Position numbers and translations under genes: made by a program. This document shows positions 5,502 to 55,483 of a stretch of DNA of 64,000 bases, in pieces. Within the stretch, counting starts at the first letter, position 1, and the number at the start of each line of letters is the position of its first letter. This DNA is from Lichenibacterium ramalinae. Its GTDB lineage: Bacteria; Pseudomonadota; Alphaproteobacteria; Rhizobiales; Beijerinckiaceae. A model generated the notes under the pieces. That model was not told where the DNA came from. It made no database searches and saw only the letters and a program-made list of their open reading frames with translations. The stretch lies in NCBI RefSeq assembly GCF_004137085.1, contig NZ_QYBC01000020.1:1-64000 (forward strand), in the 5' to 3' direction.

Positions 5502-7118
5502 TCAACCGGCTGATCCGCCGGGGGCTTCCCCGCCGAGCGTCACGTCCCACAGGCGGCAACCCGGGCCCTCGCGCAGCAGGCGGGCCGAGACGGGATGGGT
5601 GGCGCGGAGCTGCGTGAACCAGCTGCGGGCCTCCTCGTCCAACACGAGCAGGTGCCGGTGGCGCGCCACGATGTCCTCCGTCGCGAGCACGCCGGTCGCC
5701 AGGGCGGAGCCCGGGGCCGCCCAGCCGTGCAGGATCTCCATGATGTGGAAATCCATCGCGTTGTTCCGCGCCCGGAACGGAAAGCGGACCACGACCTGCC
5801 AATCCAGCGGATATAGGATCGCCTGATCGGGCGCATAGCGGGCCCGGACAAGCCAGGCATCGGGGGATTCGGCGACGACCGGCAGGCCGTCGCGGGCGAA
5901 ACCCTCCTCGAGGAACCGCCCCGCAGCGTCGCTGCACGGGATCGCGCCCAGAGCTTCGCCGGGATCGACGGCGATCTTGCCGACCCCCGACGCGATGCAG
6001 ACCACGACCGCGACGGCGGACAGGCCGCCGCCGACGTTCCGGCGCAGGGCGGCGAGCCCCGCGACGACGAGCAGGGCGGCCACGGCGACGTTGGGGATGA
6101 AGTAGCGCGGCACGAAGAACGGCGTGATGAGCCGCGATCCCACCCATCCGGCGGCGGTCAGCGCGGCAAAGCCCGACAAGGCCGCCACCACCACGGCGAT
6201 GTCCCGCCGTTCGGCGCAGCACCGCAGGAGCCCCGCGACGCTCGGCGGTCGCAGGACAGCCGCGCAGACCAGCCCCACGCCGAGGAACGGCGTCAGCAGC
6301 AGGGAGCCGGTGAGCGCCACGAGGAGTTCCATGGCATCGGGCACCGGGATCCAGCCATAGGGCGTCGCCACGGCGAGCTGGGCCGCGAGCGACAGGGCGA
6401 TCCAGCCCGCCAGCGTGGCACCGGCCGGCAGCGCCGCGGCGGCGAGTGCCAGGACCAGGTGCCTGTCCCGGTCCACCACGGCCACGAGGCCGGCCGCCGC
6501 CAGCGTCGTCAGGACGTAGAAGCCTCCGAAACTGTGGGACAGCGTCGCCAGCACGCCGACCCCCGCCAGAACCGCCACACGCCCGCGCGACGGCCTGTCG
6601 ACGACGCCCAGCGTGGCCCACAGCGTGCCGACGACCAGCGCCAGGTACAGGGCGTAGGTCCGCACCTCCAGCAGAGCGTAGCCCACCATGCCGTCCACCC
6701 CGCAGAGCATCGTGAGGCCCGCCACCACGCTCGCCGGGTCGGCGACACGGCGGCCGATGCGGTACAGAAGCAAGGCCGCCACCGACAGGACGACGAGGTT
6801 CGCCGTCCGCAGCACCGCTTCCGGCGCACCCGGAAGCGCATGCGTCAGGGCCCAGCTCAGGGACAGGTAGAGCGGCGGGTTGCCGTCCGCCCCTTGCAGG
6901 GCGCCGCTCCAGACGTGAGACAGGCTCGGCGTGTCGATCAGCGTCGTGGTGTAGAGTTCGTCGAGCCACAGGCGATGCCGCGCCGCCTGCCAGATGCGCA
7001 GGCCGGCCGCGACCAGCAGCAAGGCGCAGGCCCCGGCAAGCGCTCGGGACGGGGCGGAAGCGAGGCGGCGGCGGGAACGCCCATCGACACCGGAGGGGAT
7101 CGGGACCGAGGTCGACAT
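5502..7118 (-). CDS. GT-C-type polytopic membrane glycosyltransferase (GT39-like)
   Basis: A 538-residue integral membrane protein with about 10-12 hydrophobic helices in the first 400 residues and a hydrophilic C-terminal domain. After the first helix comes RLWLDELYTT, matching the acidic first-loop motif of GT-C enzymes that use polyprenyl-phosphate sugars; a second acidic/aromatic loop (ADGNPPLYLSLSW) follows. Such proteins add sugars to lipid A, proteins or polysaccharides on the periplasmic face. Donor and acceptor cannot be told. I chose the ATG at 7118 (MSTSVPIPSG) because the longer open frame upstream is low-complexity. It is convergent with ndvA and divergent from the acyltransferase gene. 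Confidence 0.75.
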   Translation of the reverse strand: MSTSVPIPSGVDGRSRRRLASAPSRALAGACALLLVAAGLRIWQAARHRLWLDELYTTTLIDTPSLSHVWSGALQGADGNPPLYLSLSWALTHALPGAPEAVLRTANLVVLSVAALLLYRIGRRVADPASVVAGLTMLCGVDGMVGYALLEVRTYALYLALVVGTLWATLGVVDRPSRGRVAVLAGVGVLATLSHSFGGFYVLTTLAAAGLVAVVDRDRHLVLALAAAALPAGATLAGWIALSLAAQLAVATPYGWIPVPDAMELLVALTGSLLLTPFLGVGLVCAAVLRPPSVAGLLRCCAERRDIAVVVAALSGFAALTAAGWVGSRLITPFFVPRYFIPNVAVAALLVVAGLAALRRNVGGGLSAVAVVVCIASGVGKIAVDPGEALGAIPCSDAAGRFLEEGFARDGLPVVAESPDAWLVRARYAPDQAILYPLDWQVVVRFPFRARNNAMDFHIMEILHGWAAPGSALATGVLATEDIVARHRHLLVLDEEARSWFTQLRATHPVSARLLREGPGCRLWDVTLGGEAPGGSAG

Positions 7119-7413
7119 CGACGCGCTGCTCCGCGGACGACCGCGCCGCGCCGGAAAGCTTGCTCCAAGAACGTTAACCCGGTCTCGCAGGCGATCGCGC
7201 GGCGGCCGGGGCGTCGTCGGCCGGCGGGCGCGACAGGCGTGGCCCGGGGCCAACAATTGCTATAGGACCGGCCGGACCATCCCCCGCTCGCGATCGCCGT
7301 CGCGGCCCGTCCCGTGAAACCAGACCGATGCGTCCCGCCGCCCCACCTCCCGCGCCCCAGCACCGGCCATCGACGGGCCCTGCGCGATCCGCTCCGGCCG
7401 GAGGCGGCCCAGT

Positions 7414-8292
7414 TTGCCGGGACTGAGCCTGCCCCGATCGGTCCGCCACCTCCTGGAGCACGGCCTCTTCCGCATCGCCGGCGCCACCTTCCGCGGTCTC
7501 GGCCTGCAGCGCGCCTCCGCCGTGTCGGGGCTGCTGTGGCGGGTCGGCGCGCCGCTGCTGAAGCGCCACGGCCGTGCCCTCGGCCACCTCGCCGCCAGCC
7601 TCCCGGATACGACGGCGGCGGAGCGCGAGGCGATCGCCAGGGCCATGTGGGAGAACCTCGGGCGCACCTTCGCCGAAGCCTTCTTCCTCCGTGAGATCGC
7701 CGCCGAGGGGCGGGTCGACGAGAGCAACCGGGCCGTGCTGGAGGCGTGGCTGGACTGGCCGGGCGGCAAGGTGGCCTGCGCGGCGCATCTCGCCAACTGG
7801 GAACTCGCCGTCGCACCCGCCCAGGCCGAGCGGGTCGACCTGTGGAGCATCTACCAGACCCTGAAGAATCCGCGGGTCGACGCGGATGTCCACGCCATGC
7901 GCGCCTTCCTGTACCGGGGCGGCCTGGTCGCCAAGGGACCGGGCGTGCCGCGCCAGTTCCTCAAGGTCGTGCGGGACGGCGGCGCGGTGGCGCTGCTGTC
8001 CGACCTGCGGGACTATACCGGCGTCGCCGTGCCGTTCCTTGGACGCCCGGCGCCCTCGACCACCTTCCCGGCCCTCCTGGCCGTGGCGGCCGGCGCGCCG
8101 GTCCTGGTCTGCTGCATGCGCCGCCTGCCGGGCGTGCGCTTCCTGCAGACCTACACGCTGATCGCCATGCCGGACACCGGCGACCGTGCCGCCGACGTCG
8201 CCCAGGTCACGGCCGAGATCCAGGCGGTCTTCGACGGCTTCGTCCGCCGCTGGCCCGAGCAATGGATGTGGGCGCACCGGCGCTGGGGCTGA
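7414..8292 (+). CDS. LpxL/HtrB-like lysophospholipid (lipid A) acyltransferase
   Basis: A 292-residue protein of the LpxL/LpxM acyltransferase family. The catalytic H-x4-E motif is AHLANWE (about 127-133). The later motifs KNPRVDADVHAMR and FLKVVRDGGAVALLSDLRD, and the terminal PEQWMWAHRRW, match the family. It probably adds a secondary acyl chain to lipid A at the inner membrane. The start is the TTG at 7414, preceded at 7400-7404 by GGAGG with good spacing; no ATG fits the N-terminus. At about 292 residues it is slightly shorter than E. coli LpxL. The chain specificity is not evident from sequence. Confidence 0.85.
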   Translation: MPGLSLPRSVRHLLEHGLFRIAGATFRGLGLQRASAVSGLLWRVGAPLLKRHGRALGHLAASLPDTTAAEREAIARAMWENLGRTFAEAFFLREIAAEGRVDESNRAVLEAWLDWPGGKVACAAHLANWELAVAPAQAERVDLWSIYQTLKNPRVDADVHAMRAFLYRGGLVAKGPGVPRQFLKVVRDGGAVALLSDLRDYTGVAVPFLGRPAPSTTFPALLAVAAGAPVLVCCMRRLPGVRFLQTYTLIAMPDTGDRAADVAQVTAEIQAVFDGFVRRWPEQWMWAHRRWG

Positions 8293-8311: not shown

Positions 8312-11300
8312 TCACGCCGCCCGCATGACCGCCTCGACCAGCACGCGCGTCGCCGCGCCCCCCGCCTCCGCCACTTCGACCTCCTCGCCCTCCTCGGCGC
8401 GGGCCACGGCGGCGCCGAGCGGCGTCGCGATGGACAGGAGGCCGCCGGGGCGGTCGTCCGCGCCCTCGGTCAGCCGCAGCGTCAGCCGGCGACGATCGGG
8501 GAACAGCAGGGCCACGCGGTCGCCGATGCCGATCCGCTCGCCGCGCGGCTCCGGCCCGCCCGGGGCGGGCGCCGGGGCTGCCGGCGCGGCGGCGACGCGG
8601 TGCTCGACGACCCGCGCCACCGCGGCCCGTCCGGCCTCGCCCGCGACGGGCGCGATGCCGTCCCGCTCCAGCGTGGCGACGAGGTCCGCCATCACCCCGT
8701 CCGGGTCCCGGTAGAAGCTCGACGCGAAGCAGCGCCAGAAACGCCAGCCGACGCGCTCCAGGATGCGCTGGCGGCGCATGTCCTCGCGCCAGCGCTCGGG
8801 GCCGTGGAAACTGTCGCCGTCGCATTCCACGGCGAGCCGCCGGCCCTCCAGGTCCTCGACGACGAGGTCGATGCGGAAGCCTTGCGAGCCGACCTGGGAC
8901 TCGACGCGGTAGCCGAGCGCGACCAGCCGGGCCAGCACGTCGCGTTCGAAGCCCGATTCGCAGCGTGCCGCGAGGTCGGCGTCGGGCGGGGCCGACGGCA
9001 TGGGCCGCTCGAAATGCGCGATCAGCCTGTGTTTGAGGTCGTTGACGGCGAGGTCGTCGGCCGTCACGGAGCGCACCAGCACCAGCCGGTCCCGCGCGCG
9101 CGAGGCCGCCACGTTAAAGCGCTGCTCGTAGGGCAGGGTGGTGAGCGAGGTGCGGCGGCTCCGGTCCGCCACCATGGACAAGAAGACGACGTCGCGCTCG
9201 TTGCCCTGGAAGCCGGCGCTGTTGGAGCAGAGCACCCGGTGGCGCTGCATGGCCTCCTCGCCGATGCGCTCGGTGAGCAGGACCCTCACCAGCTCCGCCT
9301 GCTCGGCGCCGATGAGCGAGATCACGCCGACCGAGCGGCCGGCGCCCTCGGGCCCGGCGATCAGCGCCGCCACCTCCTCCACGATGACGTCGGCCTCGGC
9401 GCGGTTGATCTTGCGGGCGCCGTCGCGCTTGCCGTGCGGCACCAGGATGTCGACCAGCGGCGGGTCGAGCCGCTCGCCCGCCGCCGGCACGCGCAGCGGC
9501 ACCAGCGTCTCGGGATAGAAGCTCATCGAGAAGCGGATGATGGGCTCGACGCAGCGGAAGTGCTCCTTCAGCATCAGCCGGCTGTCCGGGAACACCGCCC
9601 GCATCAGGTCGTAGAGGCTTTCGCCCGGCTCCAGCAGCGCCGCATAGGGCAGGCGCGACAGGTAGCGGTGCCGCAGCTGCGCCACCTTGCCCTGGCTGAC
9701 GAAGGGCGGCGTCGGGCTCACCTGGCGATCGTCGCCGACCGCGAGGATCTTGCGGCCGCGGAGCAGGGCCGGCAGTTCCGTGACGTCGGACTGCGACGCC
9801 TCGTCGAGGATCACGAGGTCGAAGGCCGCCATGTCGGAGGGCAGTTGCTCGGCGACGCGCCAGGTCGGCATGATCCAGCAGGGCACGGCATCGTAGCAGC
9901 GCGCCATGGCGTCGCGGGCGACGCGGCGGTGCCGGCCCGCGCCCTTGCCGGTCCCCTTGCCGAGGCGGCCCAGCGCCCGGACATATTCGACGAGGGCCGA
10001 TTTCACCCGGGGCGAGAGCCGGCGTTCGAGCGCCAGGAAGGCCCGCTCGCGCACGAGTTCCACGAAGAGCTTGCGGCCGCGGCGGTCCGCGGCGTCGCGC
10101 TCGCGCGCCAGGGCCGAGAGGGCGTCGCTCCGGTCGATGTCGGCGAGGCGCCGCTCCGCCACCGCCCGGTCCCACGCCCGGGCCCAGTCGGCGGGCAGGA
10201 TGCCGGGCGCCGGGTCCGCGCGCAGGCGGGCGGCCCAGCGCGGCGCGCCGGCCGCCTCGACGGCCGCCGCGGCGGCGCGGATCGCGGCGAAGGCCGCATC
10301 GAGCGCCCTGACGTCGCCGATCCGCGCCAGCAGGGCACGCCACAGCCCGCCCACCCTGTCGGCCTGCAGGTCGGCGCGACCGACGAGCTGTTCGGCGATC
10401 TGGCGGGCCATGACGGAGGTCCGGTCCGCGCCGGGAAAGCGCGCCGCCAAGGCCTCGATGCCGGCCCGGACCGCGACGAGCCGGGCCGCGCCGGCGGCGG
10501 CGTCGAGTTGGGCGGCGAGGCCGCGCGCCGCCGCGGCGTCGCGGGCGAGGGCCACGACGGCGAGGGGATCGAGGCCCGGCAGGCCGAGGGCGGCGAGGGC
10601 GGTGCGCGCCGCCTCGGCCCGGTCGAGCAGGCGTGCCGCGGGCCCCGGCCCGCCGGGCTCGGCTCCGGCATCGAGTCCGCTTTCGGCGGCGAGGTGGCGC
10701 CACTTCGCCGCGAGGGCGGCGCGGGCCGCCGCGAGGGCGAGGGCATCGGCGACGGCCTGCCAGGCTGCGGGCTCGCGACCGGGCGGCTGGGCCCCGACGC
10801 GGATCGCCGCCACGCGGTCCTTGGCGGGCGCGTGGCCGAGCGACAGCCGAGGCCAGGGCCTTTCGCCGCGCGCCGCCCGGGCCACGGCCTCGCGCGCCTC
10901 GGGATCGGCCTCGATGCCGGCCGGCAGGTCGACGGCCAGCGCGGCGAGCCGGCCGCGTTCGGCCTCGGTGGCGCGCCAGGCGTCGCAGCAGCCGACGAGG
11001 GCCGCGCCCCAGTCGGAGCCGTCCCGCGCCAGGGCCGCGGCGATGTGCGGGGCGAGCCAGGCCTGGCCGGCCAGGGCCTCGGCGGCTTCGGCGAGGTTTC
11101 GCAGGGCCGAGGCGGCCCGCGCCGCGGCTTCGGCCGCCGGGGGGGCGACGTGCAGCGGCCGTGCCGGGCCGGCCGCCGCCGCCGCCGCGAGCGCTTCGGC
11201 GCCGAGCAGGTCGTCGTGCCAGGCCGCGAGCGCCTCGGCGGCCGGCAGGTCCTTGGGGTCGGGCAGGTCGGCCGCGGCGTGGTCGAGGTGGTCGCCGACG

Positions 11301-13204
11301 GCGGCGCGCGCCGCGGCGAGGCGGGCCATGAGGGCGGCGTCGAGCCCCGTCTCGCCGACGTAGAGCTCCGGCGGGTCGTCGAACCAGGCGATGGCCCCGC
11401 GGTCTTCGGCGAGGACGCGGGCGAGGTCGGCCGGCAGTTCGCCGGCGGGGCCGATGGGCCGGTCCTGCAGGCCCGCGATGCCGTCGACCTCGGCGTCGAT
11501 GGCGGCGAGGCGGCCCCGGATCTTGACGATCTCGGCCTCGCAGCGGCGGATGGCGGCGAGCCGGATCTCGGGCCGGCTTTCCTCGACCACGGCCTGGATC
11601 TCGCGGAGGGCGCCTTCGACCTGGCGCAGGCCCTGGCGCTCGCTCGACAGGATCGCGATGGTGAGCGGCCGCACCTTCTCGGGCAGCTGGTCGCGCAGCA
11701 CACTGAGCGCCGCCTCGCCGCGCGACACCACCAGCACGCGCTGCCCCAGGGCCATGGCGTGGCAGATGATGTTGGCGATCGTATGCGTCTTGCCGGTGCC
11801 GGGCGGCCCCTGCACGACGAGGCCCTCGGCCTCGGCGAGGCGGTGCACGATGGCGACCTGGTCGTCGTTGAAGGGCTTGGGAAAGAAGACGTCGCCGGGC
11901 GCGGGGCCGAAGGAGGGGGCGGCGTCCGGCCCCTGGGTGTCGCCGAGGGTCGGCCCGAGCGCCGTCCAGCCGGGCCCGACGGCGTCGGCGGGCGGCGTGA
12001 CGAGCCGGGCGGCGAGGCCGTCCACGGGACGCCCCGCCTCGGCGGCGGCGCGGAACCGGGCGATGTCGTCGAGCACCACGTGCTGCGATCGAGGCCGCGC
12101 ATAGAGCACCCAGTCGCCGGCGATCTCCGGTCCGGTGCCGCCCGGGGATGGCTCGCCCTCGGCACGGTAGGACCCGTCGGCGGCGAGGCGCGCGGCGGCG
12201 AGGCGGAGCAGGGGCTCGAAGCTGTCCGGGCGGAAGGGCGACAGCCCGTCCTCGGCCTCGGCCCGGGCGAGATGGGCCCGGACGGCGGCTTCGAGCTGGC
12301 CGAGGCCCTCGCAGCCCATCTCCTCGTAGGGCTTGAGGTCGACGCGGGGCTCCGCCCCGGTCGGCCGGACCGTCAGGCGGCCGTCCTCGCCGAGCTCGAT
12401 CTCGACCGCGCAATCGACGAGCGGCCGTTCGACCGTGCGGGTCTCGCCCCGCCACCGCACCGTGCCGATGCCCCAGACCGCCTCGACGGCGCCCTCGCCG
12501 CCGCCGAGCTCCAGGACCTGCTGCACCCGGTAGAGCTGCCCGTAGAGCGCCGCGGTGCGGCGGCGGAGCCGTTCCGCGGCGGCCCAGTCCGCCCAGCACC
12601 CGTCGCGCCCGATCCCGTCTTGCCCGATCCCGTCGCGCCAAGCGGCAAGCTGCTCGCCGAGGCCGGGCTGCTCGGCGAAGCGCAGCCGGAGGTCGTAGTC
12701 GCCGTGTCCCTCGCCCCCGTCCCGGGCCGGCACGGGGGCGAAGTCCTCCTCGGCCGCCCGGTCGGCGGCGAGCAGCGCCGAGCGCTCGCCGGCCGTCACG
12801 GTGCGGAGGATCTCGGGCTTCGGTTCGGGGAGGGTGTCGGGATCCGCGATCTCCGCGAGCCAGGGCGCGAGGCCGGGCGGGGGCGGGGGCGGGGGCACGC
12901 GCGGCAGGCGGTCGACGACCATCCAGGCTGCGGCCTCGCCGTCGCCGACGTCGAGCGCGATGCCGGGCAGCCCGGCGACGTCGGCCGAGCGGATCGCCAT
13001 GGCGGTGCCGTCCGGGAGGCGGTGGTCGGCCAGGCGGAAGGCCACCCGCTCGTCGAGCCTCACCACCTGCTCGATATAGTCCAGCAGGTCGACGAGCTTC
13101 TCGGCGCCCGTCCTCGCGTCCGCGGCGGTGTCGAATGCGTTCAGGGGTCCGTCCTCGGCTGCGCCATCCCCAGCACAGAAGCCCGGATGGGCGCGCCAAG
13201 GCAA
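8312..13204 (-). CDS. Large SF1 helicase-nuclease with a GreA/GreB-like C-terminal domain
   Basis: A 1630-residue multidomain protein. The N-terminal third matches no family I recognise and has a Pro-rich linker. Next comes a COG1112/Upf1-type superfamily 1 helicase: Walker A GPPGTGKT (466-473), an inserted Ala-rich helical region (about 650-1050), motif II VILDEAS (DEAS at 1134-1137), motif III GDDRQVSPT, then GFQGNERDVVFLSMV and FNVAASRARDRL. A PD-(D/E)xK-like MTES_1575/Vsr-type nuclease follows (FRIDLVV, AVECDG at 1458-1463, then WREDMRRQRILERVGW). About 1545-1612 resembles the GreA/GreB C-terminal domain (IGDRVALL, GLLSIATPLGAAV). Helicase-MTES_1575 proteins occur in nucleic-acid defence or repair; a role here is inference. 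The gene sits 20 bases from the convergent acyltransferase gene and diverges from hisZ. The start at 13204 is the only upstream ATG. Confidence 0.85.
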   Translation of the reverse strand: MPWRAHPGFCAGDGAAEDGPLNAFDTAADARTGAEKLVDLLDYIEQVVRLDERVAFRLADHRLPDGTAMAIRSADVAGLPGIALDVGDGEAAAWMVVDRLPRVPPPPPPPGLAPWLAEIADPDTLPEPKPEILRTVTAGERSALLAADRAAEEDFAPVPARDGGEGHGDYDLRLRFAEQPGLGEQLAAWRDGIGQDGIGRDGCWADWAAAERLRRRTAALYGQLYRVQQVLELGGGEGAVEAVWGIGTVRWRGETRTVERPLVDCAVEIELGEDGRLTVRPTGAEPRVDLKPYEEMGCEGLGQLEAAVRAHLARAEAEDGLSPFRPDSFEPLLRLAAARLAADGSYRAEGEPSPGGTGPEIAGDWVLYARPRSQHVVLDDIARFRAAAEAGRPVDGLAARLVTPPADAVGPGWTALGPTLGDTQGPDAAPSFGPAPGDVFFPKPFNDDQVAIVHRLAEAEGLVVQGPPGTGKTHTIANIICHAMALGQRVLVVSRGEAALSVLRDQLPEKVRPLTIAILSSERQGLRQVEGALREIQAVVEESRPEIRLAAIRRCEAEIVKIRGRLAAIDAEVDGIAGLQDRPIGPAGELPADLARVLAEDRGAIAWFDDPPELYVGETGLDAALMARLAAARAAVGDHLDHAAADLPDPKDLPAAEALAAWHDDLLGAEALAAAAAAGPARPLHVAPPAAEAAARAASALRNLAEAAEALAGQAWLAPHIAAALARDGSDWGAALVGCCDAWRATEAERGRLAALAVDLPAGIEADPEAREAVARAARGERPWPRLSLGHAPAKDRVAAIRVGAQPPGREPAAWQAVADALALAAARAALAAKWRHLAAESGLDAGAEPGGPGPAARLLDRAEAARTALAALGLPGLDPLAVVALARDAAAARGLAAQLDAAAGAARLVAVRAGIEALAARFPGADRTSVMARQIAEQLVGRADLQADRVGGLWRALLARIGDVRALDAAFAAIRAAAAAVEAAGAPRWAARLRADPAPGILPADWARAWDRAVAERRLADIDRSDALSALARERDAADRRGRKLFVELVRERAFLALERRLSPRVKSALVEYVRALGRLGKGTGKGAGRHRRVARDAMARCYDAVPCWIMPTWRVAEQLPSDMAAFDLVILDEASQSDVTELPALLRGRKILAVGDDRQVSPTPPFVSQGKVAQLRHRYLSRLPYAALLEPGESLYDLMRAVFPDSRLMLKEHFRCVEPIIRFSMSFYPETLVPLRVPAAGERLDPPLVDILVPHGKRDGARKINRAEADVIVEEVAALIAGPEGAGRSVGVISLIGAEQAELVRVLLTERIGEEAMQRHRVLCSNSAGFQGNERDVVFLSMVADRSRRTSLTTLPYEQRFNVAASRARDRLVLVRSVTADDLAVNDLKHRLIAHFERPMPSAPPDADLAARCESGFERDVLARLVALGYRVESQVGSQGFRIDLVVEDLEGRRLAVECDGDSFHGPERWREDMRRQRILERVGWRFWRCFASSFYRDPDGVMADLVATLERDGIAPVAGEAGRAAVARVVEHRVAAAPAAPAPAPGGPEPRGERIGIGDRVALLFPDRRRLTLRLTEGADDRPGGLLSIATPLGAAVARAEEGEEVEVAEAGGAATRVLVEAVMRAA

Positions 13205-13326
13205 GCCGTGGCGCGCCCCCCGTTCACCGTCGCGCGTGAAACGGGTCGCCTCCGCGCCGCGGCATTGCTAAAGGGGAGCCCGTCCGCCGGCGTGCGGGCC
13301 GGCTCGAGACAGCGGCGGAACCAGAC

Positions 13327-14451
13327 GTGAACACAGCAGGGCCGGGGTCGGCGCGCGGGAGCGCGGGACCCGCACTCCTCCACCACTTCGCCGAGGCCGG
13401 CTACGAGACCGTGGAGCCGCCGTTGCTGCACGACGCCGGCACCTTCCTCGACCTCGGCGGCGAGGACATCCGCGCCCGCCTCTACCTCACCACCGATGCG
13501 TCGGGCGCCGAGCTCTGCCTGCGGCCCGAATACACGATCCCGGCCGCCCGGGCCTACCTCGCCTCCGACGCCGCCGGCCGGCCGGCGGCCTTCAGCTACT
13601 GCGGCCCGGTGTTCCGGATGCGGGCGAACGGGCCCGGCGAGTTCGCCCAGGCCGGGCTCGAAAGCTTCGGCCGGTCGGACATCGCCGCCGCCGATGCCGA
13701 GATCCTGGCCCTGTCGCTCGACGCCGTGGAGCGCTGCGGCACGCGCCTCACCGGCGTGGCGCTCGGCGACGCCGGCCTCGTCTCGGCCCTGCTCGACGCC
13801 ATCGACCTGCCGCCGCTGTGGCAGCGCCGCCTGAAGCGCGGCCTCGAGAAGGGGCAGGGGCTCGATGCCGTGCTGCGCGGGGCGCCGACGCGCCGCGCCG
13901 AACATTCCGGCCTGCTGGCCGCCCTGGCGGGGGCCGAGGGCAAGGACGCCCACGCCCTCGTGGCCGACCTGCTCGCCATCGCCGGCATCGCGGCCGTGGG
14001 CGGCCGATCGGTGGGGGAGATCGCCGACCGGTTCCTGGCCCAGGTGGCGCAGGGCGCCGCGCCCGACTTCGGCGACGAGCGCCGGCGCGTGCTCGCCGCC
14101 TTCTTCGCCGTGACGGGCGAGCCCGACCGGGCGTCGGGCCAGATCCGGGCGCTGGCCGAGGAGGCCGGGCTCGACCTCGGCCGCGCCCTCGACCTCTTCG
14201 ACGAGCGCACCGGCTTCATCGCCGCGCAGGGCGTCGACCTCGGCCGGCTCGTGTTCCGCACCGCCTTCGCCCGCAACCTCGACTATTACACGGGCTTCGT
14301 CTTCGAGGCGCATGCCGTCTCCCCGGACGGGCCGGTGATCGGCGGCGGCCGCTACGACCGGCTGGCCCAGGCGCTCGGCAGCGCCGACCCCGTGCCGGCC
14401 GTGGGCGCCTCGATCTGGCTCGACCGCCTGGACCCGGAGACGACCGCGTGA
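13327..14451 (+). CDS. hisZ: ATP phosphoribosyltransferase regulatory subunit HisZ
   Basis: A 374-residue class II aminoacyl-tRNA synthetase-like protein without aminoacylation function. Seen are motif 2-like [32 protein letters not shown], the region [15 protein letters not shown] and the terminal GGGRYDRLA. HisZ binds HisG and enables its catalysis at the first step of histidine synthesis. The start is a GTG at 13327. Its TGA overlaps the GTG start of hisG (GTGA, 14448-14451), indicating translational coupling. The usual hisS neighbour is not adjacent; the large helicase gene diverges upstream. Confidence 0.92.
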
Positions 14452-15483: not shown

Positions 15484-16251
15484 ATGCCGCAGCACGTCGA
15501 TCACGCTTCCTCCGCGTCGCGCCCGGTCCGGGCCAGGCCCGTCCGGCGCCCCGCGCCGCCACCCTCGGACGACCTCCGCGCCAAGGCCTTGGAGGTTCAC
15601 CGGCGGCTCGGCGCGGTGTTCGGCCTGCCGATCCCGTATTTCCACAGCCTCGACCCCTTGAGCGAGCTGGTGTCGTCGCTGCTGTCGCACCGCACCCGCA
15701 ATGCCGAGTCGGGCCGCGCCTTCAAGGCGCTGCGGGCCCGCTTCCCCGACTGGTCCGACATGGTCGAGGCCGACACCGCCGAGGTCGAGGCGGCCATCCA
15801 CGGCGTGACCTGGCCCGAGGCCAAGGCGCCGCGCATCCAGCAGGTGCTGGGCGACGTGCGCGACCGCCACGGCGACCTCAGCCTCGACTTCCTCGCCGAC
15901 ATGGACCCGGAGGATGCGCGCGCCTGGCTCGCCGCCATCCCGGGCGTCGGGCCGAAGACCAGCGCCGCCGTGCTGTCCTTCTCGACGCTGCGCATGCCGG
16001 CGCTGCCGGTCGACAGCCACCACCACCGCGTGGCGCAGCGGCTGGGCCTCATCGGCCCCAAGGTCGACGTCGGGCCGTCGCACGACCTGCTGCGCGCGCA
16101 ACTGCCGCCGGACTGGTCGGCGCAGGACCTCTACGACGACCACGAGGTGCTGATGCTGCACGGCCAGAAGACCTGCCACTTCCGCGGCCCCGCCTGCGGG
16201 CGGTGCGCGCTGCTCGACCTGTGCCCGACCGGGCAGGCGCGGGGCGCGTAG
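15484..16251 (+). CDS. Endonuclease III-like DNA glycosylase with Fe-S cluster
   Basis: A 255-residue HhH-GPD protein. The helix-hairpin-helix and catalytic Lys lie in AAIPGVGPKTSAAV, the catalytic Asp in LPVDSHHHRVAQRLG. Four Cys near the C-terminus (CHFRGPACGRCALLDLC, spacing C-x6-C-x2-C-x5-C) bind a 4Fe-4S cluster. The enzyme removes damaged pyrimidines and cuts at abasic sites. It differs from E. coli Nth enough (SHHHR for THIFR) to be the nth paralogue seen in many alphaproteobacteria, so I leave the symbol empty. The first 30 residues are basic and Pro-rich. It is convergent with dcd. Confidence 0.87.
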   Translation: MPQHVDHASSASRPVRARPVRRPAPPPSDDLRAKALEVHRRLGAVFGLPIPYFHSLDPLSELVSSLLSHRTRNAESGRAFKALRARFPDWSDMVEADTAEVEAAIHGVTWPEAKAPRIQQVLGDVRDRHGDLSLDFLADMDPEDARAWLAAIPGVGPKTSAAVLSFSTLRMPALPVDSHHHRVAQRLGLIGPKVDVGPSHDLLRAQLPPDWSAQDLYDDHEVLMLHGQKTCHFRGPACGRCALLDLCPTGQARGA

Positions 16252-16276
16252 GGGACTGGCGCGGAAGCGCCGCCCG

Positions 16277-17389
16277 TCACCCCTTGCGGAAATGCTTCGA
16301 CAGCTTGAGCCCCTGCGCCTGGTAGTTCGACCCCGCCACGGCGCCGTAGAGCGTGCGCGGCGGCTCCGACATGCGCTCGTAGACGAGCCGCCCGACGATC
16401 TGCCCGTCCTCCAGCACGAAGGGCACGTCGCGCGAGCGCACCTCCAGCACGGCGCGCGAGGCGGCGCCGCCGGCCTCGGCACAGCCGAAGCCGGGATCGA
16501 AGAAGCCCGCGTAATGCACCCGGAACTCGCCCACCAGAGGGTCGAAGGGCGTCATCTCGGCGGCGTGGTCGGGCGGCACCCGCACGGCCTCCTTCGAGGC
16601 CAGCAGGTAGAACTCGCCGGGATCGAGGATCAGCTCGCGACGCGCGCGGACGTGGATGGCCTCCCAATAGTCGCGCGGGTCCAGCGCATCGACGAGGTCG
16701 ACGTCGATGATGCCGGTGTGGCGCTTGGCCCGGTAGCCGACGAGGCCCGCGCCGTCGAACCCCGCGAGGTCGATCGACACCGCGACGCCGCCGGCGATCA
16801 CGGGCTCGGCGCCCGCCACCAGCGGCTCCGCGGCGTGGAGGGCGCGGTGGGCATCGTCGTCGAGCCGCGCGTCGCCCACGGCGAAGCGGATCTGCGACAG
16901 GCGCGAGCCCGCCCGGACCCGCACCGGGAAGGTGCGGGGCGAGACTTCGGCGTAGAGCGGGCCCGCATAGCCGGCCTCGATCGTGTCGAAGCGGCGCGCC
17001 CGGTCGGCGATGACCCGGGTGAAGACGTCGATGCGCCCCGTGGAGGATTTTGGGTTGGCGGCGGCCCGCACCTCGGAGGGAAGGGCCAGGCGGTCGTCGA
17101 GTTCCACCACCGTCACGGTGCCGGGCTCGAGGATGACGCCGGCGGCGAGGTCGAGCGCGTCGGCCGACTGTGCCGCGATGCCGTCCATCACGCTGCGGCC
17201 CCCGCCGGGCAGGAAGCTCGCCCGCACGCGCCACGCCCGCCGGCCGAGCCGCAGGTCGAGGCTCGCGGGCTGCAGCACGGGGGCGGCGGCGTCGGGCGGG
17301 AGCGCCGACACGATGGCGCCGGCGTCGCGCAGGGCCTGGATCTGGTGGGCGGCGAGGAGGCCCGGCGCGAAAGCCGCGGTTGCAGTCAT
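16277..17389 (-). CDS. dcd: 2'-deoxycytidine 5'-triphosphate deaminase, two-domain form
   Basis: A 370-residue protein, about twice the length of E. coli Dcd, fitting the alphaproteobacterial form with two dUTPase-like domains. The N-terminal half carries PASLDLRLG and NPKSSTGRIDVFTRV, matching the substrate loop of Dcd; the C-terminal half repeats the fold (GLVGYRAKRHTGIIDV, DPGEFYLLASKE). It deaminates dCTP to dUTP for dTTP synthesis. I chose the ATG at 17389 (MTATAAFAPGLLAAHQIQAL) because the longer reading upstream is not family-like. It diverges from metZ across a 201-base gap holding the palindrome at 17500-17520. Confidence 0.88.
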   Translation of the reverse strand: MTATAAFAPGLLAAHQIQALRDAGAIVSALPPDAAAPVLQPASLDLRLGRRAWRVRASFLPGGGRSVMDGIAAQSADALDLAAGVILEPGTVTVVELDDRLALPSEVRAAANPKSSTGRIDVFTRVIADRARRFDTIEAGYAGPLYAEVSPRTFPVRVRAGSRLSQIRFAVGDARLDDDAHRALHAAEPLVAGAEPVIAGGVAVSIDLAGFDGAGLVGYRAKRHTGIIDVDLVDALDPRDYWEAIHVRARRELILDPGEFYLLASKEAVRVPPDHAAEMTPFDPLVGEFRVHYAGFFDPGFGCAEAGGAASRAVLEVRSRDVPFVLEDGQIVGRLVYERMSEPPRTLYGAVAGSNYQAQGLKLSKHFRKG

Positions 17390-17499
17390 GGTGTGGGGTC
17401 CGGGGTCGAAAGCGTGCCAGCAGGTCGAGGTACGACGAACCGCCGCGCCCGCCAAGCCGCCGGCTCGACACCAGGGTAGTGACGCGTTTTGGAGTGGCA

Positions 17500-17520
17500 A
17501 AAAGAACGGATCGTTCTTTT
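17500..17520. promoter_or_regulatory. 21-bp palindrome between dcd and metZ
   Basis: A perfect inverted repeat, AAAAGAACG-GAT-CGTTCTTTT, in an AT-rich patch midway between two divergent starts. It is 111 bases from dcd and 71 from metZ. Its place between divergent genes argues for an operator rather than a terminator. No regulator is identified. Confidence 0.5.
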
Positions 17521-17590
17521 ATCCAGTCCAACCCCTTGCCTCGGCCGCAGGTCGGCGTATGACGGAGGCACGACACAGCGCGAGCCCGCC

Positions 17591-18811
17591 ATGACCGACA
17601 AGTCCGCCACCCTTCGCCCCGCCACCCGCCTCGTCCATGGCGGCACCATGCGCTCGCAGTTCGGCGAGACCTCCGAGGCGCTCTTCCTGACCCAGGGCTT
17701 CGTCTACGAGACGGCCGAGGCCGCCGAGGCGCGGTTCAAGGGCGAGGAACCCGGCTTCATCTACGCGCGCTTCTCGAACCCGACCGTGCGGATGTTCGAG
17801 GAGCGCATGGCGCTGCTCGAAGGCGCCGAGGACGCGCGCGCCACCGCGTCCGGCATGGCGGCCGTGACGGCGGCCATGATGGGCCAGGTGAAGGCGGGCG
17901 ACCACGTGGTCGCCGCCAAGGCGCTGTTCGGCTCGTGCCGCTACATCGTGGAAGACCTGCTGCCGCGCTTCGGCGTCGAATCCACCCTCGTGGACGGCGA
18001 CGACCTCGACCAGTGGCGCGCCGCCCTGCGTCCCAACACCCGGACGCTGTTCCTCGAATCGCCCACCAACCCGACGCTGGACCTCGTCGACATCGCGGCC
18101 GTGGCGGAGATCGCCCATGCGGGCGGCGCCACGCTGGTGGTCGACAACGTCTTCGCCACGCCGCTGCTGCAGAGCCCGCTGGCGCTCGGCGCCGATTGCG
18201 TCATCTATTCGGCCACCAAGCACATCGACGGGCAGGGGCGCTGCCTCGGCGGCGTGATCCTGGCGAGCCGGGACTTCATCGACAAGCACGTCCACAACCT
18301 GCTGCGGCAGACCGGCCCCTCCATGTCGCCGTTCAACGCCTGGGTGCTGCTCAAGGGCCTCGAAACCCTGCCGGTGCGGGTGGCGGCCCAGACCGCCTCG
18401 GCCGGGCGCATCGCCGACGCCCTGGCCGGCATGCCGGGCGTCACCAGGGTGCTGTACCCGGGCCGCCCCGACCATCCCCACTACGCCCTGGCGCAGCGCC
18501 AGATGAAGGGCGGCTCGACGCTGATCGCCTTCGAGGTCGAGGGCGGCAAGGCCGGCGCCTTCCGGGTGGCGAATGCGCTGCGCATCATCGGCATCTCCAA
18601 CAACCTCGGCGACTCCAAGAGCCTCGTCACCCATCCCGGCACCACCACCCACCAGCGCCTGTCGCGGGAGGTGCGCGAGGGGCTCGGCATCTCGGAAGGG
18701 ATGCTGCGGCTGTCGGTCGGCCTCGAGGACGCCGACGACCTCATCGACGACCTGCGCGGCGCGCTCGACGCCGCGGCACGGGGCATTCCCCTGGCCAAGG
18801 CCGCCGAATGA
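17591..18811 (+). CDS. metZ: O-succinylhomoserine sulfhydrylase
   Basis: A 406-residue Cys/Met-metabolism PLP enzyme. It has TRLVHGGTMRSQFGETSEAL at the N-terminus, YARFSNPTVRMFEERMALLE, and the PLP lysine in IYSATKHIDGQGRCLGG; the C-terminus carries SLVTHPGTTTHQRLS. The segment around GQGRCLGGVI is typical of MetZ rather than MetB. It makes homocysteine from O-succinylhomoserine and sulfide. The ATG at 17591 follows a purine-rich stretch. I looked for a SAM-II riboswitch, common before alphaproteobacterial met genes, and did not find one. Confidence 0.9.
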   Translation: MTDKSATLRPATRLVHGGTMRSQFGETSEALFLTQGFVYETAEAAEARFKGEEPGFIYARFSNPTVRMFEERMALLEGAEDARATASGMAAVTAAMMGQVKAGDHVVAAKALFGSCRYIVEDLLPRFGVESTLVDGDDLDQWRAALRPNTRTLFLESPTNPTLDLVDIAAVAEIAHAGGATLVVDNVFATPLLQSPLALGADCVIYSATKHIDGQGRCLGGVILASRDFIDKHVHNLLRQTGPSMSPFNAWVLLKGLETLPVRVAAQTASAGRIADALAGMPGVTRVLYPGRPDHPHYALAQRQMKGGSTLIAFEVEGGKAGAFRVANALRIIGISNNLGDSKSLVTHPGTTTHQRLSREVREGLGISEGMLRLSVGLEDADDLIDDLRGALDAAARGIPLAKAAE

Positions 18812-18865
18812 CGTGACGGGCGCGCCGGGCTGCGGCATAGTCGGCGGCATCGAACAGGTGCCGCC

Positions 18866-19258
18866 ATGTACACAGCCGTCACAAGCGACATCCAGATCAC
18901 CGTCATCCCGCAATACCTCGCCGACCAATCGGAGCCGGACGAGGGGCGGTTCGTCTGGGCCTACACGATCGAAGTCGCCAACCTCGGCCGCCGCACCGTC
19001 CAGCTCGTGGCCCGGCACTGGGTCATCACGGACGCGGCCGGCAAGGTCGAGACCGTGAGCGGCCTCGGCGTGGTGGGCGAGCAGCCGGTGCTCAACCCGG
19101 GCGAAACGTTCCGCTACACGTCCGGATGCCCGCTTTCCACCTCGTCGGGCGTGATGGAGGGGCATTACCGCATGGTCGACGACGGCGGCGGCTCCTTCGA
19201 CGCGGAGATCCCGGCCTTCTCGCTCGACTCGCCGCAGACCCGGCGCGTCCTGAACTGA
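18866..19258 (+). CDS. apaG: ApaG-domain protein
   Basis: A 130-residue single-domain protein with the ApaG fold: IQITVIPQYL, FVWAYTIEVANLG, VQLVARHWVITDA, GVVGEQPVLNPGETF, YTSGCPLSTSSGVMEGHY. These blocks are highly conserved in ApaG. The bacterial protein has been linked to Co2+/Mg2+ resistance, but the biochemical role is unsettled. It starts 54 bases after metZ, in the same direction, and may be cotranscribed. Confidence 0.92.
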   Translation: MYTAVTSDIQITVIPQYLADQSEPDEGRFVWAYTIEVANLGRRTVQLVARHWVITDAAGKVETVSGLGVVGEQPVLNPGETFRYTSGCPLSTSSGVMEGHYRMVDDGGGSFDAEIPAFSLDSPQTRRVLN

Positions 19259-19298
19259 CGTGCCCGTCTCTCGCCGAGCCGGGCCGGCGGAGCCGCCG

Positions 19299-21143
19299 TC
19301 ACGGGGCCGGCAGGCGCTCCAGCTCGTCGATGAGCCCTTCGATCACGCCGAGGCCGATGCTCCAGAAGCCGGGGTCCTGGGCGTCGAGCCCGAAGGGCTT
19401 CAGCAATTCGGAATGGTGCTGGGACCCGCCTGCCGCCAGCAGCGCCAGGTAGCGCTCGGCGAAACCGTCGGGCGCGGCCCGGAACACGCCGTAGAGCGAG
19501 TTCACCAGGCAGTCGCCGAAGGCATAGGCGTAGACGTAGAACGGCGAGTGCACGAAATGCGGCACGTAGGACCAGTAGGTCTCGTAGCCGGGGCCGAGCC
19601 GGATCGCCGGCCCGAGGCTGTCGGCCTGCACCGACATCCACAGCTCGCCGATGCGCTCCGCCGTCAGTTCGCCCGACCGCCGCTCCTCGTGCAGCCGGCG
19701 CTCGAAGGAATAGAACGCGACCTGCCGCACCACGGTGTTCAGCATGTCCTCGACCTTGGCGGCGAGGAGGGCGAAGCGGGCTTCCGGCGTCTCGGCCCGG
19801 GCCACCATGGCCCGGAACGTCAGCATCTCGCCGAACACCGAGGCGGTCTCGGCCAGCGTCAGCGGCGTCTGCGCCATGAGCGCGCCCTGCGGGGCGGCAA
19901 GCGTCTGGTGCACGCCGTGGCCGAGCTCGTGCGCCAGCACCATGACGTCGCGCGGCCGGCCCTGGTAGTTCATCAGCACGTAGGGATGCACGGCCGGCAC
20001 CGTGGGGTGCGAGAAGGCGCCCGGCGCCTTGCCGGGGCGGATCTCGGCATCGATCCAGCCCTCGTCGAAGAAGCGCCGGGCGATGTCGGCGAGGCGCGGC
20101 GAGAAGCCCCGGTAGGCGTCCAACACCGTGTCGCGCGCCGCCGCCCAGGGCACGGTCGCGGGCGGCGCGAAGGGCAGGGGGGCGTTGCGGTCCCAATGGT
20201 TCAGCTGCTCCCGGCCGAACCAGCGCGCCTTCATGCGGTAATAGCGGTGCGACAGGCGCGGGTGGGCGGCCTGCACGGCCTGAACCAGCGCATCCACCAC
20301 GTCGCGCTCCACGCGGTTGGCGAGGTGGCGCGAGTCGGCGACGTCCTCGAAGCCGCGCCAGCGGTTGGCGATCTCGAGGTCCTTGGCGAGCGTGTTGGTG
20401 ATGAGCGCGAAGGTCCGGCGGTGCGCCGCCAGCGTCTCGCCCAGCGCCGCCGCGGCCCGTTCGCGCCGGCGCTCGTCGGGGTCCTGCAGCAGGTTCAGCG
20501 TCGGCTCCAGCGCCAGGGCCTCGCCGTCCACGTCGAAGCGCAGGGCCGTGATGGTCTCGTCGAAGAGCCGCGTCCAGGCGGCGCGGCCCGTCACGGCCTT
20601 CTCGTGGAACAGCTGCTCGAGCTTGGTGTCGAGCTGGTGCGGCCGCTCCTTGCGCATGTCGTCGAGCCAGGGACGGTAACGGGCGAGCGGTCCCTCCGCG
20701 GCGAGCCGGTCCAGCGTCGCGTCGGGCAGGGCGTTCATCTCCAGGGTGAAGAAGATCAGGTTCGACGACACGGCCGTCACCCGGTCCTGCGCATCCGCCA
20801 TGAACTTGGCCCGGGCCGGGTCCGACGTGTCCTCGGCGTAGAGGAGCTGCGCGTAGGAGGCGGCGCGGCCGAGCGCCTCGTCGAGCGCCTCGTAGCGCGC
20901 GATGGCCCGGGCGAGGCCGGCTCCGGCGTCCTCCGCCGCCGCCCGTTCGGCGAGGCGGCCGCGGTAGTCCGCCGCGAAACCCTCGGCGTCGCGCCCGGCG
21001 GCGTCGAGGTCGCGGGCGAAGGCGGCGGACTCCATGCCGGCGTAGAGGTCGGCCAGGCTCCAGCGCGGCACGGCGCCGAGGGCTTCGGCATCGGCCGCTG
21101 AACGGGCCTGGTGGAAGGCTGGACGACGGCGTGAAGCGATCAT
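19299..21143 (-). CDS. pepF: M3-family oligoendopeptidase F
   Basis: A 614-residue zinc metallopeptidase. The zinc motif is LAHELGHGVHQ (HELGH about 403-407), with the downstream Glu in LAETASVFGEML. The N-terminal alpha-helical domain begins PRWSLADLYAGMES, typical of PepF/M3B. It cleaves short peptides in the cytoplasm. The ATG at 21143 gives a slightly extended basic N-terminus. It diverges from the sigma-54 regulator gene. Confidence 0.9.
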   Translation of the reverse strand: MIASRRRPAFHQARSAADAEALGAVPRWSLADLYAGMESAAFARDLDAAGRDAEGFAADYRGRLAERAAAEDAGAGLARAIARYEALDEALGRAASYAQLLYAEDTSDPARAKFMADAQDRVTAVSSNLIFFTLEMNALPDATLDRLAAEGPLARYRPWLDDMRKERPHQLDTKLEQLFHEKAVTGRAAWTRLFDETITALRFDVDGEALALEPTLNLLQDPDERRRERAAAALGETLAAHRRTFALITNTLAKDLEIANRWRGFEDVADSRHLANRVERDVVDALVQAVQAAHPRLSHRYYRMKARWFGREQLNHWDRNAPLPFAPPATVPWAAARDTVLDAYRGFSPRLADIARRFFDEGWIDAEIRPGKAPGAFSHPTVPAVHPYVLMNYQGRPRDVMVLAHELGHGVHQTLAAPQGALMAQTPLTLAETASVFGEMLTFRAMVARAETPEARFALLAAKVEDMLNTVVRQVAFYSFERRLHEERRSGELTAERIGELWMSVQADSLGPAIRLGPGYETYWSYVPHFVHSPFYVYAYAFGDCLVNSLYGVFRAAPDGFAERYLALLAAGGSQHHSELLKPFGLDAQDPGFWSIGLGVIEGLIDELERLPAP

Positions 21144-21321
21144 CGGTCTGGCGTGTCCTGGTCGTGGCGCGGTCTCTGGGCCGTCCCCATAGGCTCATCG
21201 CATCGCGCCGTCACGGGGCTGTCGACGGCCGGGCTGCCCCGCCCCGGCGTTAAGGCGCGGTTTACCCTCGTGTCCGATGGTGACCCTGCCGGCGGCGTCG
21301 AGTCCACGGCATCGGGGACGC

Positions 21322-22791
<1,470 letters not shown>

Positions 22792-49723: not shown

Positions 49724-50038
49724 AGGAAGGGCCCCAAGCTGGAGAAATTTTGAATAGGATGAAAGCCCCGGCGGGTTGGCAAGGGGCAGCAACCTAAGAT
49801 TTTGGCGAGAGTTTCCCTTCCCGTTGCAGATGCACAACACAGGTTCCGCCTTGGGTCAGACCCAAAGCTTGGCTGCTATGATGGCACCCTCGCAGCGGGT
49901 GGTCGCAGCCATCATGCCGGCAATAGACCGCCCGTCGCCGCCCATCCGACTGGGCAGCGCACAAGTTCCGCCCGATTGACGCGCTCGCTCGATCGGCGTT
50001 CCCTCTGCAAGGGAATTCGTGTTGGGGAGACGAGTGCG
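49724..50038. other. Intergenic leader before the Tyr-rich gene
   Basis: A 315-base gap that probably holds the promoters of two divergent units. A GGGGAGA ribosome-binding site lies just before 50039. I see no gene, repeat or RNA here. Confidence 0.4.
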
Positions 50039-50620
50039 ATGTCGGGATACGGCTACGCGTCATACGGTGCTGGTTACGGCTACTACGAAATCTCATTGGG
50101 TGGTTACAACACAGCTCGCGGCGCGTTGACCGGGCCTGGTTCCTCGGCTTACGGGCAGCAGGGTGACATTACGAGCTATGCTCACGAGAACTACAATGGA
50201 GGCATATTCGAGCAAACCACCCTGACGCGTGGGAACACCTATCAGGTCGCCACGAGCTACAGCTACGCAGCCGGATATTACTATTACGGGTCTGATTACG
50301 GCGCTAGCGGCACTAGCGCATACTCCAATCTGAACTCGTATTCGAGCTATTCGTCAGCGTTGGGCAACTCTCAAGAAGGACTGCTCGACTACTCGTCATC
50401 GTCAAGCTCGCACGTTGCCTCCGACGGTTACGATCGTCGGACATCCACCGGATTTTCGCTTCAAAATTATGCGGGTGGGTCTTACAATACGAGTTATCAC
50501 TCGTTTTCCGGCCTGTTCACTTATGCAGGGGATCCTGTGCCGGGCTCCTCCAGCAGCTATTCGTCGACCACGAGCTATGACGCTGCAACGGGGTATGTGA
50601 CGGCCTATCACACGCCTTGA
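50039..50620 (+). CDS. Tyr/Ser/Gly-rich low-complexity protein
   Basis: A 193-residue protein with extreme composition: about 31 Tyr (16%), with Ser and Gly making up much of the rest, and almost no Lys or Arg. Clusters include GYGYASYGAGYGYYE, AAGYYYYGSDYGAS and LDYSSSSSSH. It has no signal peptide or membrane helix and no recognised domain. The composition resembles silk-, prion- or adhesive-like proteins and phase-separating sequences; any function is inference. GGGGAGA precedes the ATG. A hairpin follows the stop. Confidence 0.7.
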   Translation: MSGYGYASYGAGYGYYEISLGGYNTARGALTGPGSSAYGQQGDITSYAHENYNGGIFEQTTLTRGNTYQVATSYSYAAGYYYYGSDYGASGTSAYSNLNSYSSYSSALGNSQEGLLDYSSSSSSHVASDGYDRRTSTGFSLQNYAGGSYNTSYHSFSGLFTYAGDPVPGSSSSYSSTTSYDAATGYVTAYHTP

Positions 50621-53364: not shown

Positions 53365-54627
53365 TCAAACCGCCAGCAAGTCGCCCCATCGCGTCGTGTA
53401 CCGGGCCGAGAGGTGCTCGGCCCGCAGCGTCCAGCCCTTCGCACCCGTGGCGGTGCCATATCCGACCGTGCCCCGGCCGTAGCGGCGGTTCAGGGCGTCG
53501 ATCGACGCCATCAGCAATTTGCTGCGCGGGTCGTCGGGGTGGAGGAACAGCGAGCCCTGAACGGCGCCGGCCTTGATCAGCGCCGGGAAAATCACGCCGG
53601 CTTTCTTGTAGAGGAAGCCATCGCGCCAGATGCAGTCCAGGCCGAACATGGCGGCCTTGGTGAGCCGCCCCGTGTCCGCCGTCGCCACGGTGAGCTGCAC
53701 GGGCCGCGTGGCGCCGTACTGGGCCTGGTCGGGGCGGTGGCGGTTCGTGTGGGCGAAGACGATGAGGCTCGCGGTCGCGAGCCCTTGCCGGCGCATCTTC
53801 TCCGCCGCCCGCGCCGTGTGGCTGGCGACCGCCTCTTCCATCTCGCGCCGGAGCCCGACGGCCCGGCCGAAGGACCGCGTGGCCATGATGCTCTTTCGGT
53901 CCGGGCTATGCCGCTCGAGGTCGAGGCAGGGCAGGCCGCGCAGCTCGTGCACCATGCGCTCGATGTTGACGTTGAAGGCGCGTCGCGCCACCTGCGGATC
54001 CGTGGCGCGCAGTTCGAGCGGCGTGGTGATCCCGATCGCCCGCATGCGCTCGGCGAGCCGGCTGGCGACGCCCCACAGATCCGTCAGTTCCATGCGGCCG
54101 AGCGCCTCCTCCTGCGCCTCGCGGGTCAGCAGCATGCAGACGCCCCCGGAAGCAGGGTCGCGCTTGGCCGTCCGGTTCGCCACCTTGGCCAACGTCTTCG
54201 TCGGCGCGATGCCGACCGAGACCGGGATGCCGGTCCACTGCAGCACGGTCGCCCGGAGTCGGCGCGCGTGCGCCTCGAGCCGGTGCTCGAAGCCCCCGAA
54301 GCCGAGGAAGGCCTCGTCGATCGAATAGACCTCCAGCTCCGGGGTGAAGTCCGACAGGACGCGCATCACGCGAGCCGACAGGTCGCCGTAGAGGGTGTAG
54401 TTGCTCGACCGCACCACGATCCCGCTGCCGGCGTGACGGTCCTTCACGAGGTGCCACGGGTCGCCCATGGCGATCCCCAGGGCCTTCGCCTCGTTCGAGC
54501 GGGCGATCACGCAACCGTCGTTGTTCGACAGCACGACGATCGGCAGGCCGCGCAGCGACGGTTGGAAGAGCCGCTCGCAGGAGGCGTAGAAGTTGTTGCA
54601 GTCGACGAGGGCGACGGGGCGGGCCAT
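53365..54627 (-). CDS. umuC: Y-family DNA polymerase UmuC (Pol V)
   Basis: A 420-residue translesion polymerase. Motifs in order: [17 protein letters not shown] (catalytic Asp), [25 protein letters not shown] (about 102), [32 protein letters not shown] and a C-terminal DUF4113-type segment ([20 protein letters not shown]). It needs UmuD' for function. The ATG at 54627 starts the fold; umuD ends 8 bases before it (54635), so they form an operon. Its 3' 579 bases are present again, inverted, at 55716-56294. Confidence 0.93.
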
Positions 54628-54634
54628 GGGGCCC

Positions 54635-55195: not shown

Positions 55196-55203
55196 GACTC
55201 GGT

Positions 55204-55243
55204 CCCCGCTGATTACCGTTACAAATATCAACTTAGAGCGGGG
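55204..55243. promoter_or_regulatory. Inverted repeat upstream of umuD
   Basis: CCCCGCT (55204-55210) pairs with AGCGGGG (55237-55243) around an AT-rich patch containing GATTACCGTTACAAATATCA. It lies just before the umuD start and may be the operator or a leader hairpin. Confidence 0.4.
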
Positions 55244-55483
55244 TGATTTGCAAGGGGTTTGTCCCGAGCGGTCCGACAGTCCTGCCTTCGCAACGGCACC
55301 AAGCTGACGGGACGCCGTCGAGATCGTTTGCCCGCTGCCCTTGAGGGTAGCGGGCGCTTTCAGCGTTGTGGACGCCCGAGAAGGGCGCTTATCAGGCGCC
55401 CGATGGGGCAGGGTAGGGCGTGGACGGCAGCGCAGACCGTCCAACGCCATCTCGCAAGATCAGGCACTTGACCTCGATTTGTC

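Follow-up and report, generated by a model that had tools for sequence, protein, structure and literature searches.

Here, we have analysed a stretch of 64,000 nucleotides from Lichenibacterium ramalinae (the window) and found that one of its genes encodes a protein of 1630 residues in which an N-terminal region, a predicted SF1 helicase, a predicted Vsr-like nuclease of the MTES_1575 family and a domain resembling the C-terminal part of GreA and GreB (Gre-C) follow one another. An initial annotation had listed five motifs in a given order, and all are present in that order: GPPGTGKT (residues 466-473), DEAS (1134-1137), GDDRQVSPT (from 1157), AVECDG with E1460 and D1462, and GLLSIATPLG with ATPLG at 1593-1597. 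The reading of these motifs as an SF1 helicase, an MTES_1575/Vsr-like nuclease and a Gre-C-like end was likewise borne out by Pfam, structure comparison and modelling. We tentatively propose that the protein, a helicase-nuclease encoded by a single, horizontally moving gene, most likely acts as an effector against phages or plasmids, and that its tail would aim it at RNA polymerase.

Domain architecture of the protein

The open reading frame lies on the minus strand, begins with a TTG that is 122 bp away from the start of the divergent hisZ-like gene and runs for 1630 codons plus a stop (Table 1). Most relatives show homology only from about residue 35 onward, which leaves the true start uncertain. 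Pfam places AAA_11/AAA_12 at residues 445-509 and 1197-1377, MTES_1575 at 1419-1512 and GreA_GreB at 1556-1626. As the Pfam E values are strong and 36 relatives across phyla were found in a scan of genome contigs, several of them matched over at least 1500 residues, the match of this frame is not due to chance.

Table 1. Features of the helicase-nuclease-Gre-C gene and its flanks (window coordinates)
Feature	Coordinates	Strand	Basis or note
Whole gene: N-terminal region, SF1 helicase, MTES_1575 nuclease, Gre-C tail (predicted domains)	8312..13204	minus	1630 aa
N-terminal region, residues about 35-440, family-conserved, fast evolving	11885..13102	minus	family alignment
SF1 helicase RecA1 start (predicted), residues 445-520, Walker A GPPGTGKT	11645..11872	minus	AAA_11 E 3.2e-16
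Insert of ~570 residues, Walker A to motif II	9935..11644	minus	delimited by the helicase motif matches on either side
Helicase motif II (DEAS) to motif VI, residues 1091-1385	9050..9934	minus	AAA_12 E 1.3e-14
MTES_1575 (Vsr-like PD-(D/E)XK) nuclease (predicted), residues 1419-1512; D1446, E1460, D1462	8669..8950	minus	PF18741 E 1.8e-31
Linker: conserved VEHRV/YTEHRV motif, then variable stretch	8549..8668	minus	low pLDDT, alignment
GreA/GreB C-terminal-type FKBP-like domain (predicted), residues 1553-1627	8324..8548	minus	PF01272, 1grj, model
HisZ/histidyl-tRNA synthetase-like flank, divergent	13327..14451	plus	PF13393 E 4.4e-42
Lipid A acyltransferase-like flank, convergent	7414..8292	plus	PF03279 E 3.8e-30

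The Walker A motif, a DExx box and motifs III to VI of an SF1 helicase of UPF1/SMUBP2 type are found in order, and the nearest sequences in the PDB are those of SMUBP-2, UPF1/NAM7 and Sen1. Walker A is identical across all relatives that span it, and those that cover DEAS, GD(D/H)(K/R)Q(V/I)SP, QG.E(R/K)D and SRARD have retained these motifs. Judged by these motifs, the predicted ATPase motor is intact. Comparison of the window gene with those of L. minor and a third congener gave dN/dS values of 0.05-0.18 in the helicase and nuclease domains, indicating purifying selection, and of 0.16-0.34 in the Gre domain. The fastest-evolving parts (0.38-0.49) are the N-terminal region, at about 0.4, and the helicase insert, at 0.43-0.49. 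By analogy, we infer that such fast evolution is of the kind often shown by sensing parts.

Structure prediction had been suggested in the initial annotation for the N-terminal region, the nuclease and the tail. It gave confident models of the latter two, with Vsr-type and GreA/Gfh1-type domains as the best matches, and was less informative for the N-terminal region, where the AlphaFold2 model had a pLDDT of 78, Foldseek matched nothing at E<=1e-3 and the best VIA Z was 4.6. Pfam reported no family for this region in the window protein, nor did the PDB contain a sequence match to it; the absence of a fold assignment does not prove a new fold.

The nuclease scored 108.5 bits with PF18741 against a curated cut-off of 38.2, which places it in that family with the catalytic ID and E-x-DGD residues intact. 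In the AlphaFold2 model of residues 1400-1630, its pLDDT is mostly 87-98, and by VIA it matches I-Bth0305I (Z 12.2) and Vsr (Z 10.4). That the motif might be degenerate throughout the family had been raised as an objection to the domain reading; we reject degeneracy, since the catalytic motif is kept across the family, with the positions E, ID, E.DGD, W, Q, ER and FWRC invariant in an alignment of 23 rows. Sequence and model together thus describe an intact putative PD-(D/E)XK nuclease of Vsr fold. The linker that follows is disordered in the model.

The identity of the tail deserves closer argument, for the window protein taken alone stays below the Pfam gathering score of PF01272 (26.9 bits): the full-protein scan gave 20.2 bits (E 5.8e-4), and scans overall 20.2-26.1. 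This is what could be said for the view that a small beta domain resembles Gre-C by chance, a reading that we consider extremely improbable and reject on the following evidence. PF01272 matches all 13 of the 13 aligned family tails, each searched alone (best E 1.2e-10), and exceeds the threshold in the relatives L086 (31.1 bits), L093 (33.3) and G091 (27.9). A tail profile finds E. coli GreA (1grj) in the PDB at E 3.3e-4, and hhalign aligns the tail with the host's own GreA at E 4e-7 and a probability of 93%. When the window and L. minor are left out of the tail model, the host GreA scores 24.3 bits with it, while the best of 1000 shuffled window tails scores 7.2. The tail is modelled with a pLDDT of 94-97, and its best Foldseek matches are GreA, Gfh1, GreB and Rnk, which are all RNA polymerase ligands. 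By VIA, GreA and Gfh1 reach Z 9.9-10.7, Rnk (3bmb) 8.1, and the trigger factor and FKBP rows about 7. A Gre-like fold, on whose presence at residues 1540-1612 the initial annotation had staked its interpretation, is recovered by profile, AlphaFold2, Foldseek and VIA alike, and the model, Foldseek and VIA assign it the FKBP-like Gre-C type. We take the tail, on sequence and model, to be a genuine Gre-C domain used as a module.

The protein is not a Gre factor, because the GreA_N coiled coil is absent from the 24 Pfam families that its scan lists with E values up to 1; the nuclease occupies the place where it would be. The host genome has a separate canonical GreA of 162 residues. The GreA/GreB loop is only loosely kept in the tails, SPLG being replaced by ATPLG in the window, ATALG in L. 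minor and HVAG in L008, so that binding to RNA polymerase may be altered or lost.

Family, tails and genomic context

A Gre-C ending is found in the alphaproteobacterial branch of Lichenibacterium, Microvirga and Bradyrhizobium, and in Rhodopirellula, a Blastocatellia MAG and a Hyphomicrobiales MAG; gamma, delta, Nitrosomonas and other homologues end soon after the nuclease and have no Gre tail. Two more distant helicase-MTES_1575 proteins (L049, L093) also carry Gre-C. Other proteins have further combinations behind MTES_1575: Gre-C with a RAMA/DUF4357-like part in L086, Gre-C with DUF3320 in the isolated remnant L088, DUF3320 alone in L041 and WGR in L050. As relatives carry wHTH, RAMA, WGR or nothing at this place, the tail would be an interchangeable aiming module. 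The core tree has an uncertain root and long branches to the distant rows. On it the Gre label has to change 5 times, and well supported branches force at least 4 of these changes; L009 was scored as tail-less in this count, but its gene runs off the contig end. Repeated gain and repeated loss are both compatible with these changes. The Lichenibacterium ramalinae genome also holds a second, distant helicase-MTES_1575 protein (L002; C13:159249-162212, a 2326-aa open frame at 31% identity), which gave no Gre-C match.

The initial annotation had proposed a search for the same fusion in other Hyphomicrobiales and for its neighbourhoods. Such copies were found in Microvirga and Bradyrhizobium, and the distribution outside the genus is very patchy: a profile of nuclease and Gre (E<=1e-20) is matched in 2/297 genomes of the order, 8/289 of the class and 6/398 of the phylum. 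Within Lichenibacterium, a protein query finds the gene in 5 of 6 genomes. No long homologue appeared in a scan of viral contigs, which reaches close relatives only, and phage records gave a single weak partial match.

In several relatives the surroundings are of a defence type. Some copies are carried on plasmids. The Microvirga copies are 90-93% identical, their neighbourhoods are mostly different, and some adjoin repC and an HNH gene. The M. sesbaniae copy (L026) sits between Tn7-like tniABQ genes upstream and a TPR-GreAB-C-PIN pair downstream; there, at 15568-22064, two adjacent genes contain Permuted_GreAB-C, HTH_upstream_double_PIN and PIN-TPR-GreABC domains. On Sphingobium plasmids a relative adjoins restriction endonuclease, methyltransferase and AbiE genes, and in Variovorax paradoxus one lies near a DUF4194/AAA ATPase pair, which we read as Wadjet-like. 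In Acinetobacter BREX loci the homologue stands directly behind brxL. On the Acinetobacter plasmids (L103 1-13627, L042 100-13627), these are type 1 BREX loci with a tail-less homologue after a 63-bp gap, and in L103 a DUF262-HNH gene lies between pglX and pglZ. Taken together, the sequences indicate that the helicase-nuclease family is mobile and moves horizontally.

The window copy itself has ordinary neighbours, with no defence genes among them by Pfam. The link to defence drawn in the initial annotation finds indirect support in the context of the relatives (patchiness, plasmids, BREX, restriction-modification, Wadjet-like and TPR-GreAB-C-PIN neighbours) and none around the window copy. 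From that context, we consider a role in defence likely.

Taken literally, the earlier placement of the gene in the core chromosome next to hisZ is correct, but the site is less settled than this implies. The hisZ-like gene is the first gene of a hisZ-dcd-metZ-like block that is conserved in the congeners. To its left (the side of window positions 13205-13326), the flank differs in all three genomes compared, namely the window, G063 and L. minor (G090). The helicase gene of the latter two is at another locus that they share, and the site left of hisZ thus looks possibly variable. In G063 the lipid A acyltransferase-like gene lies a long way from hisZ, and in G090 the two are on different contigs. 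An ABC transporter neighbour is common to the window and the congeners G091 and G092. In codon composition (GC3 0.95) the helicase-nuclease gene of the window matches the chromosome around it.

Elsewhere in the window, a 584-aa open reading frame of strong coding composition (5502-7256, minus) has no Pfam match at E<=1e-4, and a umuC/umuD-like pair (53365-55450, minus) includes a UmuD-like frame with about 150 extra residues before the match. Positions 49802-50620 and 57562-58470, the latter an FkbM methyltransferase gene, have a low GC3 (0.61 and 0.52, against about 0.9 for most genes) and are possible foreign stretches.

Relation to known systems

Conflict systems with Gre domains were already known, and so were defence proteins that join a helicase to MTES_1575. 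The MTES_1575 family takes its definition from a large helicase-REase-wHTH protein (PMC3710099). Like the window protein, the SF1 helicase-Vsr-like REase-wHTH proteins of this type, the named anti-phage proteins ProA (NF058533) and Hhe (NF042953), and PDC-S37 are long proteins in which an SF1 helicase precedes an MTES_1575/Vsr-like nuclease. The window protein differs from the helicase-MTES_1575-wHTH group in its N-terminal region, which has no DUF4011, transglutaminase or HEPN match, and in carrying Gre-C where those proteins have a DUF3320 wHTH. Membership in ProA or Hhe is rejected, as the scores are far under the cut-offs (239.3 bits against 1500 and 167.9 against 2000, respectively); the DUF4011 N-terminus of Hhe is absent in Pfam scans of the window protein. 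The best PADLOC match is PDC-S37 (PDLC05009), at 232.5 bits over 298-1341 of 1550, which covers helicase and nuclease only; the relatives score similarly with this model, which has no stated cut-off.

According to Kaur et al. 2021 (PMC8195603), it is GreA/B-C that contacts the polymerase, by way of the beta-prime coiled coil at its secondary channel; they predicted that the target of TPR-GreA/B-C-PIN proteins is polymerase engaged in the transcription of viral DNA. These systems (PF20698, PF24388) resemble the window protein in having Gre-C within a conflict protein. They differ in combining it with TPR, PIN and variable effectors, while the window protein has an SF1 helicase, a Vsr-like nuclease and Gre-C at its C-terminus; with no PIN domain (PF20698) in its Pfam scan, it does not belong to them. 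GreA, GreB, Gfh1 and Rnk have the C-terminal FKBP-like domain in common with the window tail (Z about 8-11); the window protein is set apart from them in that its Pfam scan gave no match to the GreA_N coiled coil. Nhi/Hna and Hachiman are also reported to unite helicase and nuclease in one protein or complex; we take them to use other helicase and nuclease families and to have no Gre domain.

In the open-access literature searched, we found no report of a helicase-nuclease fused to Gre-C, no paper combining GreA or GreAB with a helicase, REase, WGR or RAMA, and no match for PDC-S37; a survey of BREX (PMC12839542) mentions neither MTES nor GreB.

Possible action at RNA polymerase

To understand how such a protein may act, we consider that the fast-evolving N-terminal region and helicase insert could sense an invader or its nucleic acid, that the SF1 motor would load and translocate, and that the Vsr-like domain would cut DNA (possibly RNA). 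Like the corresponding domains of GreA, GreB and Gfh1, the Gre-C tail could dock on RNA polymerase at the coiled coil of its secondary channel, and the motor and nuclease would thereby be tethered to transcription complexes. This would follow the logic of the TPR-GreA/B-C-PIN proteins with a helicase-nuclease in place of PIN. Four lines of evidence speak for this mobile effector with a polymerase-aiming tail: the intact architecture seen in Pfam, alignments and models; the interchangeable tails, with the forced changes of Gre state on the tree; the defence-type ecology, including the mobile Microvirga copies; and the precedent of Gre-C in conflict systems, with its predicted docking on polymerase (PMC8195603). 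Weighing against it are the ordinary neighbourhood of the window copy, the missed cut-offs that leave the family outside the named defence systems, the loosely kept Gre loop and the many homologues that have no such tail. We consider docking itself, argued from Gre-C precedent, to be evenly balanced. The explanation as a whole we place somewhat below that, since the steps to defence and to docking are not independent.

In another reading, the protein would be a defence helicase-nuclease in which Gre-C serves as an FKBP-like module for contacts with proteins other than RNA polymerase: it would sense a phage protein, keep the nuclease inactive or mediate assembly. The partial conservation of the GreA/GreB loop, the Z of about 7 with trigger factor and FKBP, and the replacement of the tail by unrelated modules in relatives would all suit it. 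Since the best structure and sequence matches are specifically GreA, GreB, Gfh1 and Rnk, ligands of RNA polymerase, we regard it as rather unlikely. Less probable still is a housekeeping or stress factor for transcription-coupled repair or for resolving R-loops or backtracking, which would remove stalled polymerase and nick damaged DNA. The presence of the gene in most genomes of the genus, its core-like GC3, purifying selection and the kinship of its motor to SMUBP-2, UPF1 and Sen1 are consistent with such a role, but it sits poorly with the very patchy occurrence outside the genus, the lack of a single conserved locus within it, the plasmid and defence-gene neighbours of relatives and the fast evolution of the N-terminal region and insert.

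To return to the polymerase-aimed effector, its most specific form would be a transcription-aimed restriction enzyme, in which Gre-C finds RNA polymerase on invading DNA and the motor and nuclease strip and cut the template. We regard this version as possible, though rather unlikely. To our knowledge, the recruitment of conflict proteins to RNA polymerase by Gre-C domains is a prediction that has yet to be proven, and the present protein offers a testable example of it. If the proposal is true, immunity would be linked directly to transcription, and the nuclease would cut DNA where RNA polymerase reads it. The family would then represent a common helicase-nuclease chassis whose aiming modules at the C-terminus can be swapped, and exchanging the tail (Gre, wHTH, RAMA or WGR) would retarget the same chassis.
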